From the NCBI GenBank assembly GCA_018268515.1, contig JAFDWK010000067.1:6306-44958 (forward strand): a stretch of DNA of 38,653 bases, in the 5' to 3' direction. The number at the start of each line of letters is the position of its first letter. Position 1 is the stretch's first letter. This document shows positions 10,915 through 13,705 of the stretch, one piece after another. This stretch comes from Actinomycetota bacterium (GTDB lineage Bacteria > Actinomycetota > Actinomycetes > Actinomycetales > Microbacteriaceae). Under the pieces are notes generated by a model. That model ran no database searches, was not told where the DNA came from, and worked only from the letters and a program-made list of their open reading frames with translations. The position numbers were made by a program, and so were the translations under genes.

Positions 10915-11988
10915 GTGGCTCTCACTATCGGAATCGTCGGCCTGCCCAACGTCGGCAAGTCGACCCTCTTCAACGCTCTCACCAAGAACGACGTGCTCGC
11001 GGCGAACTACCCGTTCGCGACGATCGAGCCGAACGTCGGCGTGGTGAACCTGCCGGACGCGCGCCTGAACGCTCTCGCCGAGATCTTCGGCAGCGAGCGG
11101 ATCCTGCCCGCGACGGTGTCGTTCGTCGACATCGCCGGCATCGTGCGCGGCGCGAGCGAGGGGGAGGGGCTGGGCAACCAGTTCCTCGCGAACATCCGCG
11201 AGGCCGACGCGATCGCGCAGGTCGTGCGCGGTTTCGCCGATGACGACGTGGTGCACGTGGACGGTGAGATCGACCCGAAGAACGACCTCGAGACGATCAA
11301 CGCCGAGCTCATGCTCGCCGACCTGCAGACCCTCGAGAAGGCGATCGTGCGCATCGAGAAGGAGGTGCGCGGTCGCAAGACCGACGCCTCCGTGCTCGAG
11401 GCCGCCAACGCCGCGAAGGACGCGCTCGAGCGCGGCCAGCTGCTCTCCACCAGCGGGATCGACCTGGCTCCGATCAAGGAGCTGGGCCTGCTGACCTCGA
11501 AGCCGGTCATCTTCGTCTTCAACGTCGACGAGGCCGTGCTCACGGACGCGGCCCGCAAGGCGGAGCTTGCCGCGCTCGTGGCCCCCGCGCAGGCGATCTT
11601 CCTGGACGCGAAGATCGAATCCGAGCTCATCGACCTGGATCCGGAGGACGCCGCGGAGCTCCTCGCCTCCACAGGCCAGGACGAGTCGGGTCTCGACCAG
11701 CTCGCCCGCATCGGTTTCGACACCCTGGGCCTGCAGACCTACCTCACGGCCGGCCCGAAGGAAGCGCGCGCCTGGACGATCCACAAGGGCGACAAGGCCC
11801 CGCAGGCCGCCGGCGTGATCCACACCGACTTCGAGAAGGGCTTCATCAAGGCCGAGGTCATCTCGTTCCAGGATCTGGTGGACACCGGATCCGTGGTCGA
11901 GGCCCGCTCGAAGGGCAAGGCGCGCCTGGAGGGCAAGGACTACGTCATGCAGGACGGCGACGTCGTCGAGTTCCGCTTCAACGTGTAG
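10915..11988 (+). CDS. ychF: Ribosome-binding ATPase YchF
   Basis: 357-residue Obg-like P-loop protein that prefers ATP over GTP and associates with ribosomes. The G1 loop GLPNVGKST is at 9-17. The usual G4 NKxD is replaced by NVDE (FVFNVDEAV), the hallmark of ATP preference in this family. A coiled-coil insert and the C-terminal TGS domain (LQTYLTAGPKEARAW, HTDFEKGFIKAEV) follow, ending in DVVEFRFNV. The protein is complete. Its last 30 bases recur downstream in the accessory region, so the gene end behaves like an integration site. Confidence 0.97.
   Translation: MALTIGIVGLPNVGKSTLFNALTKNDVLAANYPFATIEPNVGVVNLPDARLNALAEIFGSERILPATVSFVDIAGIVRGASEGEGLGNQFLANIREADAIAQVVRGFADDDVVHVDGEIDPKNDLETINAELMLADLQTLEKAIVRIEKEVRGRKTDASVLEAANAAKDALERGQLLSTSGIDLAPIKELGLLTSKPVIFVFNVDEAVLTDAARKAELAALVAPAQAIFLDAKIESELIDLDPEDAAELLASTGQDESGLDQLARIGFDTLGLQTYLTAGPKEARAWTIHKGDKAPQAAGVIHTDFEKGFIKAEVISFQDLVDTGSVVEARSKGKARLEGKDYVMQDGDVVEFRFNV
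11957..11988 (+). repeat. ychF 3'-end repeat, copy A
   Basis: Native end of ychF. Bases 11957-11986 match 13674-13703 at 27 of 30 positions, the differences being three C-to-G changes; bases 11964-11988 match 12511-12535 at 19 of 25. Taken here as the ancestral copy. Confidence 0.75.
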
Positions 11989-12041
11989 CGCCGTTGCACT
12001 TCGAACGCTCGCCTCGGGCATCGACTATCTGTGCCGCCGGG

Positions 12042-12071
12042 TAGGTTTATCTTGATGTCAAGATAAACCTA
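12042..12071. promoter_or_regulatory. 30-bp palindromic operator before the VOC gene
   Basis: TAGGTTTATCTTGA at 12042-12055 and its exact reverse complement at 12058-12071 are separated by TG. A TATCTT -10 candidate (12048-12053) lies inside it, and the VOC start codon follows 5 bases later, so a dimeric repressor bound here would block transcription. The TCTTGA/TCAAGA half sites resemble those of MarR-type regulators, but no regulator gene is adjacent. Confidence 0.75.
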
Positions 12072-12076
12072 GCGAG

Positions 12077-12463
12077 ATGAGGCTGCAACACGTCCAGATG
12101 TCGATGCCCAGCGGACAAGAGGACGAGGCCCGTCGCTTCTACCGCGACGCACTCGGTCTCCGCGAAGTCCAGAAGCCGCCATCTCTGATCAGCCGCGGAG
12201 GCTGTTGGTTCCGGGCCTATGAGGGTCACGTCATCGTTGCGGAGATCCACCTCGGCGTCGAGCATCCCTTCCAGCCAGCCAACAAGGCTCACCCGGGTCT
12301 TGTCTGCGCGTCGTTCGGTGAACTCGAGGCGACGGCCGCGCGCATCGAGTGCGGTGGATACGAGCTCTCATGGGCCGAGCGAGACACCTTCGAGGGATAC
12401 ACGCGGTTCCATGCCCGCGACGGGTTCGGGAACAGGGTCGAAGTGATGGCACTCGCGGCGTAG
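12077..12463 (+). CDS. VOC (glyoxalase/bleomycin resistance-like) protein
   Basis: 128-residue single-chain vicinal-oxygen-chelate fold made of two beta-alpha-beta-beta-beta halves. Likely metal ligands are H5 (LQHVQM), H72 (KAHPGL) and E122 (GNRVEVMAL); the helix ARRFYRDALGLRE at 18-30 is the family signature. Members act as lyases, dioxygenases or drug-binding proteins; the substrate here is unknown. It stands alone directly downstream of ychF behind a strong palindrome, so expression is probably induced by a small molecule. The repeat B after it suggests it entered as a separate cassette. Confidence 0.85.
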   Translation: MRLQHVQMSMPSGQEDEARRFYRDALGLREVQKPPSLISRGGCWFRAYEGHVIVAEIHLGVEHPFQPANKAHPGLVCASFGELEATAARIECGGYELSWAERDTFEGYTRFHARDGFGNRVEVMALAA

Positions 12464-12510
12464 TCGTGCCTGCAGCAGAGTGGCTCGCCAGAGGTTCTTT
12501 GACGGAACCC

Positions 12511-12535
12511 GGTGGAGTTCTGGTTTAACGTCTAG
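12511..12535 (+). repeat. ychF 3'-end repeat, copy B
   Basis: Non-coding copy between the VOC gene and higB. It matches copy C (13681-13705) at 20 of its first 23 bases and copy A at 19 of 25. Read in the ychF frame it would still give VEFWFNV followed by TAG. Confidence 0.6.
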
Positions 12536-12540
12536 CGTCA

Positions 12541-12560
12541 ATAACGCGAGGCGTTATAGT
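12541..12560. promoter_or_regulatory. higBA operator and -10 box
   Basis: ATAACGC (12541-12547) and GCGTTAT (12551-12557) form an inverted repeat with spacer GAG. It overlaps TATAGT (12555-12560), an excellent -10 that ends 8 bases before the higB GTG. HigA-type antitoxins repress their own operon, so this is the likely HigA site, and the higB message is probably leaderless. Confidence 0.65.
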
Positions 12561-12568
12561 CTGGGGAT

Positions 12569-12850
12569 GTGATCAGATCGTTCGGCGACAAAGACACCGA
12601 ACGACTGTGGCGTCGTGAGCGCGTGCCGTCGATCGATCCCCGGATCCATTCGGTAGCGCTGCGCAAGCTGCGCCAGGTGGGATCCGCAGAGAGTCTCGAC
12701 GACCTCCGAATCCCACCGGGAAACCGGCTCGAATCGCTGAAGGGCGATCGCGCCGGGCGGTACAGCATCAGAATTAACGACCAGTGGCGGATCTGCTTCG
12801 TGTGGACCGATGCCGGGCCAGAGGAGGTCGAGATCGTTGACTACCACTGA
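12569..12850 (+). CDS. higB: HigB-type toxin (RelE/ParE superfamily)
   Basis: 93-residue toxin of the HigB branch; such toxins cleave mRNA in the ribosome. The fold is recognisable from the basic N-terminal helices (LWRRERVPSIDPRIHSVALRKLRQV), the turn LRIPPGNRLESLKGDRAGRYSIRINDQWRICF with the catalytic-region Arg residues, and the C-terminal VEIVDYH whose final His is the usual active-site residue. The GTG start lies 8 bases from TATAGT. It overlaps higA by 14 bases, in the toxin-first order typical of higBA. Confidence 0.92.
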   Translation: MIRSFGDKDTERLWRRERVPSIDPRIHSVALRKLRQVGSAESLDDLRIPPGNRLESLKGDRAGRYSIRINDQWRICFVWTDAGPEEVEIVDYH

Positions 12851-13139
12851 CAGGATTCCCCCGATTCATCCGGGAGAGGTCCTCATGGAGGACTTCATCA
12901 AGGGCTTCGAGATCACGCAGAACAGGCTCGCGGTTGCGATCGGGGTGCCACCGCGACGCATCAACGAGATCGTCCATGGAAAGCGCAGGATCACAGCCGA
13001 CACGGCGTTGCGGCTCTCCAAGTACTTCGGCACGTCCGCCGAGTTCTGGATCAACCTGCAGAGCCACTACGAGCTGGATCGGGCAGAGGATCTTGCGGGG
13101 GAGCAGATCGCTTCGATCACGCCGCTGAAGGTCGCGTGA
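12837..13139 (+). CDS. higA: HigA-type antitoxin (HTH, XRE-like)
   Basis: 100-residue antitoxin that neutralises HigB and represses the operon. IPPIHPGEVLMEDF at 7-20 is the family N-terminus, and an XRE-type helix-turn-helix spans about 24-62 (ITQNRLAVAIGV and RRINEIVHGKRRITADTALRLSKYFG), followed by SAEFWINLQSHYELD. The TTG at 12837 was chosen because GAGGAGG lies 9 bases before it and the protein then begins MTTTDRIPPIHPGEVL. Its stop overlaps the GNAT start as GTGA. A broken second copy is present at about 14399-14560. Confidence 0.92.
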   Translation: MTTTDRIPPIHPGEVLMEDFIKGFEITQNRLAVAIGVPPRRINEIVHGKRRITADTALRLSKYFGTSAEFWINLQSHYELDRAEDLAGEQIASITPLKVA

Positions 13140-13705
13140 CCGACTTCGTCGACTACGAGCCGAATGTGCATTCGGCGCGCTCGGACGAGTCTGTCAAGAT
13201 CCGTCCAGTGGAATCGGCGGATGCCGATGGCCTCGCAGCAGCGATGGCTGTTCGCGGAGGCACGGCCGAGGAGTATCGCGATCGCGCACTCCGGTTGATC
13301 AACCGACTGGACGTGTTGCTCATCGCCGAGACGGACGGCGTGCCCGTCGGGTGGTGTGGCATCCAGAAGTTCTCCATCCATCCGGATGCCGAGCCGGAGT
13401 GGCTCATCGCCGGCTTGACGGTCGTCCCCGAGCTGCGCCGACGGGGAATCGCTGCTCGGCTCCTGGGCGGTGTCCTCGACGCAACTGCAGGATCGGCGCC
13501 GAACGAGCCCATCTTCAGCGTGATCAATGCCAGGAACCTTGCGTCGATCGATCTCCACCAACAGCTGGGGTTCTCGGAGGTCGGGCGCGCTGCGACTTTC
13601 GCACGTATCGACTTCACCGGCGGCGAGGGCATCTTGCTTCGCTGTTCAAGGAGTCCAGATGCCTATCCCGTACGCGACGTGGTGGAGTTCCGGTTCAACG
13701 TGTGA
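13136..13705 (+). CDS. GNAT N-acetyltransferase, third gene of the higBA operon
   Basis: 189-residue GNAT-fold acetyltransferase. Strands IRPVESADADGLAAAM at 22-36 and VLLIAETDGVPVGWCGI at 60-76 lead to LTVVPELRRRGIAARLL at 94-110, the acetyl-CoA loop (R-R-R-G-I-A at 101-106), then NARNLASIDLHQQLGFSEVG at 131-150. Start GTG overlaps the higA stop (GTGA), so it is translated with the antitoxin. The last nine residues, DVVEFRFNV, are identical to the end of YchF and come from repeat C, so the natural C-terminus has probably been replaced. Substrate unknown: it may modify a small molecule or take part in the toxin module. Confidence 0.85.
   Translation: MTDFVDYEPNVHSARSDESVKIRPVESADADGLAAAMAVRGGTAEEYRDRALRLINRLDVLLIAETDGVPVGWCGIQKFSIHPDAEPEWLIAGLTVVPELRRRGIAARLLGGVLDATAGSAPNEPIFSVINARNLASIDLHQQLGFSEVGRAATFARIDFTGGEGILLRCSRSPDAYPVRDVVEFRFNV
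13674..13705 (+). repeat. ychF 3'-end repeat, copy C
   Basis: 27 of 30 bases equal the end of ychF. Here it is read in the same frame and supplies the last residues and the stop codon of the GNAT gene. Confidence 0.75.

Follow-up and report, generated by a model that had tools for sequence, protein, structure and literature searches.

A cassette array behind ychF in an actinobacterial genome, probably built by serine integrases acting in trans

Introduction

Why is the 3' end of ychF found again at the edges of the small accessory genes that follow it in a Microbacteriaceae genome, and what put those genes there? We analyzed a stretch of 38,653 nucleotides (contig JAFDWK010000067.1, positions 6,306 to 44,958; G000:C79:6306-44958 in our numbering), which we call the window, from an assembly of 3.7 Mb (3,714,235 bases in 115 contigs). 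A sequence-only reading of this DNA had suggested that small cassettes accumulate at the end of ychF, which would serve as their attachment site, each cassette bringing a new copy of it, and the arrays of related genomes support this proposal. We think it quite probable that the region is an array of cassettes without integrases, which would be moved in trans by serine integrases that are specific for the end of ychF.

Three copies of the ychF end in one genome

In the window, ychF is an open reading frame (ORF) at 10915-11988 on the forward strand, and its last 30 bases (site A, 11959-11988) are the chromosomal attachment site. The two other sites are on the same strand. Site B (12482-12535) has a cassette-type left arm to 12513 and a right half at 12514-12535, and site C (13652-13705) has both a left arm and a right half. 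A repeat search put 11957-11986, 12504-12533 (67%) and 13674-13703 (90%) into one family, so both of the copies that had been reported, including the one between the VOC gene and higBA, are real; the copies of the ychF 3' end itself lie at 12506-12535 and 13676-13705.

We scanned the whole genome with a degenerate pattern (GGTGGAGTTCCGSTTYAACGTSTRR, up to 3 mismatches) and with the reversed pattern as a control. There were three matches, exactly at sites A, B and C and all on one strand, and none for the control. This rules out chance repeats, and B and C are beyond what random GC-rich matches would give. With a site matrix that was learnt from relatives (window sites included), the three sites score 45, 40 and 50; elsewhere in the window no score exceeds 8.5, which falls in a nei-like gene, and the other strand reaches at most 3.5. 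Conservation goes further left than the 30 bases that had been described, as a weaker arm from about -18, and the crossover appears to fall within the repeat, at about 11966, 12513 and 13683.

Behind ychF, the order is site A, the VOC gene, site B, higB-higA-GNAT, site C, a vapBC-type pair, and a higBA remnant. Cassette 1 (11967-12513, 547 bp, forward strand) contains a single glyoxalase/VOC gene (12077-12463), and related DNA lies between two sites in L069 (79%) and L138 (77%). Cassette 2 (12514-13683, 1170 bp, forward strand) contains higB (12569-12850), higA (12885-13139) and a GNAT gene (13136-13705) whose frame takes its tail from site C. DNA similar to its higBA genes is present in 22 of the 76 loci that we fetched from other genomes and is nearly complete in 16. 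As had been noticed, the GNAT and YchF proteins both end in DVVEFRFNV. The GNAT tail is probably read-through into the site, because the homologue in G038 stops before the site.

The gene order given by the sequence-only reading is correct as far as it goes, but the array continues past 13705, since a homologue of the vapBC-type pair (RHH antitoxin and PIN toxin; 13758-14398, forward strand) sits between two sites of L115, at 1680 and 2489, and the repeat search found a higBA remnant at 14400-14552 (forward strand). The matrix scan of the window found no recognizable right-hand site after the pair, and the remnant has none either.

Arrays in related genomes

We searched 198 genomes of the genus, which is probably Microbacterium, and 398 of the family for ychF and for the pattern; the site positions are among the matches listed and cover part of the genomes. 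A YchF protein was matched in all 198 genus genomes (E ≤ 0.001; weakly in G016 and G194). The pattern is present at least once in 180 of these, with 2 matches in total for the reversed control, and at least twice in 54, four of which are doubtful (in G030, G095, G104 and G174 the extra matches seem due to chance, to a distant location or to the assembly). In the family, at 2 mismatches, it is found in 254 of 398 genomes (control, 1 match), and genomes with multiple copies are spread over several genera. G026 has 10 matches across 40 kb, the last of them 16 kb apart from the others, and G147 and G182 have seven each (the count for G182 includes an overlapping half site).

Among the 40 nearest relatives by ychF match (G122, with ychF at a contig end, was skipped), and at a matrix score of 20, 20 have at least two sites, 19 have one, and L049 has none. 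Two of the 20 are less certain: in L045 the match is inside a nei-like gene, and L070 has weak second matches only. Single-copy relatives, which the accumulation of cassettes would lead one to expect, therefore exist.

At a matrix score of at least 14, the 1.23 Mb made up of the window and the 76 fetched loci contain 225 sites on the strand of the array and 2 on the opposite strand. Where a locus has no ychF in the stretch, the repeat itself served to orient it, so there the one-strandedness is by construction. One of the two sites on the opposite strand is in L144 (G297), at about 9462-9507, where a strong inverted site lies beside a weaker direct one; this is the only clear inversion that we saw.

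The median site-to-site interval in the fetched arrays is 1170 bp (n = 137; 10th to 90th percentile 492-3738 bp), and 100 of the 137 intervals are 2 kb or less; because array loci beyond the nearest relatives were picked for their multiple copies, the sample is not random with respect to cassette number and length. As had been predicted, where relatives have other cargo, the repeat lies at its edges. By Pfam, the cargo includes helix-turn-helix (HTH) antitoxins, HigB toxins, glyoxalases, hydrolases, dehydrogenases, and PIN and RHH proteins. (The Pfam and PADLOC scans covered 140 of the 330 called cassette proteins; the most frequent Pfam counts given are HTH_3 14, HTH_19 12, HTH_31 11, HigB 8, and glyoxalase 7. 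Among the 25 families listed by PADLOC, each matched one protein.) The array of G036 carries a type I restriction set (HsdM and HsdR domains). A plasmid collection gave one good match (Nocardia farcinica) and two short ones.

A few loci depart from the usual layout. In L042 (397-450), L106 (409-457) and L117 (914-967), a partial second right half directly follows the site; these are possibly slipped or half sites. In L136 (G338), a duplication of at least 70 bases of the ychF end, at 473 and 6570, flanks a 6 kb insert with an ORF of 1012 amino acids, which looks like a different kind of event.

The crossover probably lies at a GT within the site

The core consensus of 140 cassette sites is AACNNGGTGGAGTTCCGSTTYAACGTSTRR, with the weaker arm upstream. 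The right half of a cassette site copies the end of ychF, GGAGTTCCGSTTCAACGTSTRR. The left arm is different: in cassettes it reads roughly GA-GTT--TC-GTG-CGGAAC--G, whereas the ychF end lacks that arm, has its own coding sequence upstream, and has GAC instead of the AAC of cassette sites. The GT at +6 and +7 is present in 96 and 97% of the 140 cassette sites and in 30 of 31 sites beside integrases (see below).

To locate the boundary, we compared pairs of sites with related DNA on one side only. Seven pairs share just the upstream cassette; these show no difference anywhere from -4 to +7, then 2 of 7 differ at +8 and more do beyond it. For 42 pairs that share just the downstream cassette, agreement is 0.29 at +3 and 0.38 at +4 (unrelated pairs, 0.5), 0.90-1.00 at +5 to +7, and 0.90-1.00 at most positions from +9, with dips at +15, +17 and +26; many of the 42 are higBA cassettes, so they are not independent. 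Strand exchange is confined to +5 to +8, as for a serine-integrase site with a shared central dinucleotide.

Shared cassettes and unoccupied loci

Comparing arrays, we found near-identical cassettes between differing neighbours. A cassette of 1313 bp is 99.85% identical between G038 and N. farcinica NCTC11134. Going leftward, the last difference between the two sites is at +4, and going rightward, the first is at +8, so the shared stretch starts and stops at the GGT of the repeat. Both copies sit in arrays behind the host's own ychF, and those YchF proteins are 80% (G038) and 71% (N. farcinica) identical to the window's. This amounts to exchange of the cassette between two orders. The N. farcinica copy is on NZ_LN868939 (L160/L313), which is named "plasmid 2"; it is probably chromosomal, as it is 2.66 Mb in size and carries ychF.

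Other cases are less distant. L116 and L132, from different genera, have the same small cassette with both ends kept (88.6%), and L107 and L120, from one genus, have a cassette that is 97.8% identical beside other neighbours. In G033, a higBA cassette is duplicated in tandem, and the two copies are 100% identical over 1253 bp. G026 and G147 have several common cassettes at 94-98%.

Three pairs of relatives indicate what the locus looks like without cassettes: the DNA just after ychF in a one-site genome matches DNA that, in another genome, follows the final or penultimate site of an array. These are L059 and site 2 of 2 in L061 (82% over 389 bases, offset 0); L062 and site 4 of 4 in L111 (73% over 323, offset -30); and L040 and site 4 of 5 in L063 (95% over 390, offset 3), where the fifth site is 4.6 kb beyond the fourth. 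A fourth pair (L037 and site 3 of 3 in L056, 93% over 149) is weaker evidence and involves an apparent higBA remnant, and three further matches are 46-137 bases off a site. We rejected L044 as an unoccupied locus, since it matches many arrays because its own first DNA is a higBA cassette.

Serine integrases beside the same site

The sequence-only reading had also suggested looking for an integrase that acts on this site. We found a serine integrase linked to the site in other genomes and in viral contigs, but not in the window's genome. Twelve viral contigs carry the site, and the integrases beside it are of two kinds, tyrosine and serine. In five (L152, L154, L156, L169 and L172), it belongs to one family of serine integrases (about 450 amino acids, 41-65% identical to the first) and starts 35-47 bases left of the site. 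The left arms of these five sites score 10.0, 18.5, 14.5, 14.7 and 6.1 on the cassette matrix; the last is no better than the ychF-like arms of L155, L157 and L171 (8.2, 6.2 and 7.7), for which we identified no integrase within the available stretch.

With the five serine integrases as queries, a search of genome contigs yielded 71 loci. In 26 of these, there is a site on the opposite strand no more than 130 bp from the integrase start, with 40 sites in all over 1.32 Mb (L185 and L186 are one contig that is counted twice, both in the 26 and in the 71). For 11 of the 26, ychF is in the same stretch and on the same strand as the site. Within the family, the site is present at 6 of the 7 best integrase matches and at none of the next 23 that were fetched; a lower, truncated match in G521 is also about 55 bases from a site. 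These helper elements, like serine-integrase elements generally, have the integrase gene beside attP. Site-linked serine integrases occur in viral contigs, Frigoribacterium, Brevibacterium, Mycobacterium, Nocardia and others, with a large serine integrase beginning within about 90 bp of the site in Frigoribacterium, Brevibacterium and others. The two that we tested both have resolvase and recombinase domains.

Another 13 of the 71 begin within 200 bp behind ychF. We also noticed a second group of related serine integrases, which start 8-91 bp directly behind ychF, in L191, L193-L195, L197, L198, L201, L203, L208, L210, L212, L222 and L227. Their arrangement is opposite to that of the cassette-linked group, and the YchF end differs in several.

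The outer left arm (-22 to -5) played no role in finding the integrase-side sites, and it resembles that of cassettes. Median scores are 8.9 for cassettes, 8.0 for 30 integrase-side sites (1 of the 31, L175, was left out for its weak core), -0.2 for 66 ychF ends, and -7.5 for random positions. The area under the curve (AUC) is 0.97 against random positions and 0.96 against ychF. Counting best matches of the left arms did not separate the integrase-side arms from those of ychF. The sequence-only reading had missed this separate left arm, which ties the cassettes to the serine integrase family, as well as the crossover position and the extent of the arrays.

In three cases, an integrase element and small cassettes stand side by side. 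In G511, ychF is followed by 7 kb at whose far end the integrase lies, then by a site, and 0.8 kb of DNA with a PIN-domain gene separates this site from another. In Frigoribacterium sp. PhB116 (G453 and L221 are the same contig, a single case), ychF is followed by 24 kb ending in the integrase, a site, 2.2 kb, and a site. In Brevibacterium S111 (L215), ychF is followed by an element with the integrase and a NikA-like mobilization gene; after this come a first site, a glyoxalase-type gene, a second site (score 21), higBA plus a GNAT gene, and a third site. The HigB and HigA of S111 are 56% and 70% identical to the window's; the window's VOC and GNAT proteins had no match in S111 at 1e-6. The cargo beside the integrase elements is of the same kinds as in the window. 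In all three, the integrase lies between ychF and the small cassettes, which is what one would expect if the most recent insertion were the one closest to ychF.

A model for growth of the array

The enzyme that inserts the cassettes is probably the serine integrase of other mobile elements that use the same site. The sites, the cassette boundaries, the shared cassettes, the unoccupied relatives and the link of the site with serine integrases are observed in the sequences; we infer a cassette circle, action in trans, regeneration of the target and a route between cells. In the circle, the cassette-type left arm would be followed by the crossover GT and by a right half that repeats the ychF end. 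An integrative element or phage that shares this site would provide, in trans, a large serine integrase that recombines the circle with the ychF end at the GT. The chromosome would then retain the left arm of ychF joined to the right half of the cassette, which encodes EFRFN(V/N) and a stop, so that ychF would be rebuilt whole with new last codons and the junction could again serve as a target. The previous ychF end would move to the far side, older cassettes would shift downstream with their cassette-type arms, and the next cassette or element could enter at the same place. As each cassette would bring a working ychF end, gene and target would both be restored and arrays would grow. This model would explain the common orientation, the ychF-like right halves at all sites, the cassette-type left arms at most sites except the first, and the changing last residues of YchF.

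Several observations weigh against this model, beyond the strandedness that is by construction in loci without ychF. First, two cassettes that adjoin in G147 are about 10 kb apart in G026, so internal insertion or deletion is needed besides growth at ychF, and the model alone leaves G026's roughly 10 kb of extra cassettes unexplained. Second, it does not by itself explain arrays in genomes with no detected integrase of this kind. A resident integrase was rejected by Pfam and motif scans of the arrays that we checked: there was no match to PF00589 (tyrosine integrases) in the arrays of 15 genomes or to PF00239 (serine recombinases) in those of 29 (including G069, which has a single copy). In the window's genome we found no integrase with a ychF-end site (the nearest relative, in G000:C15, has no site beside it), and none of 30 fetched integrase loci from the genus has one (best score 7.6). 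G163 has four copies of the site; its genome has two PF00589 genes, which we take to be XerC and XerD, and one weak PF00239 match of 50 residues. With no fitting integrase there, many arrays may be fossils. Third, 32 of the 71 serine integrase loci are not next to ychF or to the site; the arms of some integrase-side sites (L172, L176, L177, L182 and L219) are weak; ychF ends themselves score above random positions in the outer arm (AUC 0.92); and in L156 a tyrosine integrase of 388 amino acids, which was matched in 7 of 30 genomes, lies on the opposite side of the same site from the serine integrase.

Alternative explanations

The cassettes could instead be remnants: full elements that lost their integrase in place and are not mobile in trans. 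This would resemble cis-mobilizable elements (CIMEs), which lack integration and transfer genes, keep their attachment sites, can lie in tandem with an integrase element, and are described as decayed integrative and conjugative or integrative and mobilizable elements (PMC5704250; here and below, papers are cited for the part of their text that was available to us). The cassettes do have attachment sites at both ends and no integrase, by the 15- and 29-genome checks and the motif scan; we made no systematic search for transfer genes in them. Integrase elements in line with cassettes (G511, G453 and L215), and the lack of an integrase in most arrays examined, fit this explanation. However, unlike CIMEs, the small units here are shared between genera with their ends exactly kept (L116 and L132; G038 and Nocardia) and occur beside other neighbours within a genus (L107 and L120). 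Decay in place would not give such sharing unless whole arrays moved, and we consider this explanation unlikely.

It is more doubtful that a tyrosine integrase or a Xer-type host enzyme moves the cassettes. Four of the viral contigs (L151, L153, L158 and L170; the sites of the first two look alike) and the Streptomyces satellite Mulchroom, taken from a separate collection, have related tyrosine integrases of about 250 amino acids beside a ychF-end site, so ychF is probably a target of this family as well. In Mulchroom (L159, OQ784832), the copy of the ychF end is at 7355-7379. Tyrosine integrases usually need strong identity such as that of the right half, and L156 has both kinds of enzyme beside the site. 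But the left arms of the tyrosine-linked sites score just 3.4, 3.4, -0.4, -16.1 and 0.3, well below those of four of the five serine-linked contigs, and the 15 arrays checked had no match to PF00589.

We give little weight to a third explanation, that no site-specific enzyme is now at work, the cassettes being spread by homologous recombination at the repeats or through the exchange of complete arrays. The several cassettes shared by G026 and G147 would fit this, and recombination between repeats would account for losses and for the duplication in G033. In contrast, the boundaries fall within a three-base interval in independent cases, and an imperfect repeat of 30 bases is short for homologous exchange across orders. 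Homologous recombination may still cause deletions and duplications.

A true integron, or a cluster of attC sites lacking an integron integrase (CALIN), is very improbable: as in those systems, small cassettes with toxin-antitoxin genes form arrays, often with no resident integrase (no recombinase is local in the genomes checked, and the arrays of 15 genomes have no match to PF00589 that would point to an IntI-type enzyme), but here the anchor is a coding gene whose end forms the sites, the associated enzyme is a serine and not a tyrosine integrase, and neither attI nor attC is evident at the level of the 140-site consensus, where no attC core box, as that motif is generally known, stands out. 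We also considered an attC-like hairpin from the inverted arms CGGAAC..GTTCCG and dropped it, as the link to serine integrases made it unnecessary.

Comparison with known systems

Overall, by analogy, the system seems to work like staphylococcal cassette chromosome (SCC) elements or the ssrA islands of Dehalococcoides, at the scale of an integron. The Dehalococcoides islands lie in tandem behind the 3' end of a conserved gene, have edge repeats of that end, and carry, to the left of the repeat, a motif unlike the sequence of the gene; sixteen carry a CcrB-like serine recombinase and others were proposed to be cis-mobilizable (PMC3146451). The tandem units, end repeats, distinct left motif and serine recombinase are all similar here. 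Unlike those islands, the anchor is ychF rather than ssrA, the hosts are actinobacteria, and most intervals are 2 kb or less.

SCC and Enterococcus cassette chromosome elements at rlmH have large serine recombinases, variable cargo and direct repeats some 50 bases long, and 16 of 32 elements have several right-hand sites (PMC6222049). We see the same type of enzyme, direct repeats at the 3' end of a conserved gene, and variable cargo, but at another gene and another site, and in much smaller units. Our sites are at ychF wherever ychF is in the stretch, and not at the rlmH 3' end, and three of the integrases score 36-78 bits against the NCBIfam models for CcrA, CcrB and CcrC (cut-offs 700-900).

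Phages and satellites also integrate at or near ychF. The Mulch paper, in the part available to us, names no integration site for Mulchroom (PMC10690885), which unlike the arrays has a tyrosine integrase and another left arm. The attB of pneumococcal prophages is upstream of ychF, not at its end (PMC8637289, PMC10383233).

Other features of the window

Beyond the higBA remnant are a DUF2695 gene, a lipoprotein-like ORF (named by eye; it has no Pfam match) and an IS110-family transposase, together at 14597-17091, which we do not count among the cassettes. The transposase gene (15991-17091) is at the far end of the accessory region, and we found no link between it and the repeats. We rejected an origin driven by insertion sequences, as this gene is outside the sites. 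Backbone resumes near 17562: the first gene in common with relatives (17562-17723, forward strand) begins 5577 bp after ychF, compared to 3548 bp in G110.

Implications

Tandem islands with serine recombinases at rlmH and ssrA, and accretion of elements without integrases, are already known. As far as the literature that we searched goes, what is new is that the anchor is ychF and the hosts are actinobacteria, that the scale resembles that of integrons, and that helpers seem to be used in trans; we found no earlier description of cassette arrays at the ychF end there (subscription papers and preprints were outside the search).

We lean towards a broader view, with little more than even confidence: ychF may be a self-renewing port for successive capture of genes across genera and orders by a recombinase that is not resident, which would make this a serine-integrase counterpart of the integron. 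The recombinase would come and go with mobile elements and phages, and a single visit of a helper could serve the whole cassette pool. If this is true, then actinobacteria have an integron-type platform for gene capture that is built on another class of enzyme. It would account for the differences among species in the final residues of YchF, and recently exchanged genes could be recognized by their position between two such sites downstream of ychF. It would also be a compact case of how an attachment site that copies its own target lets elements stack.

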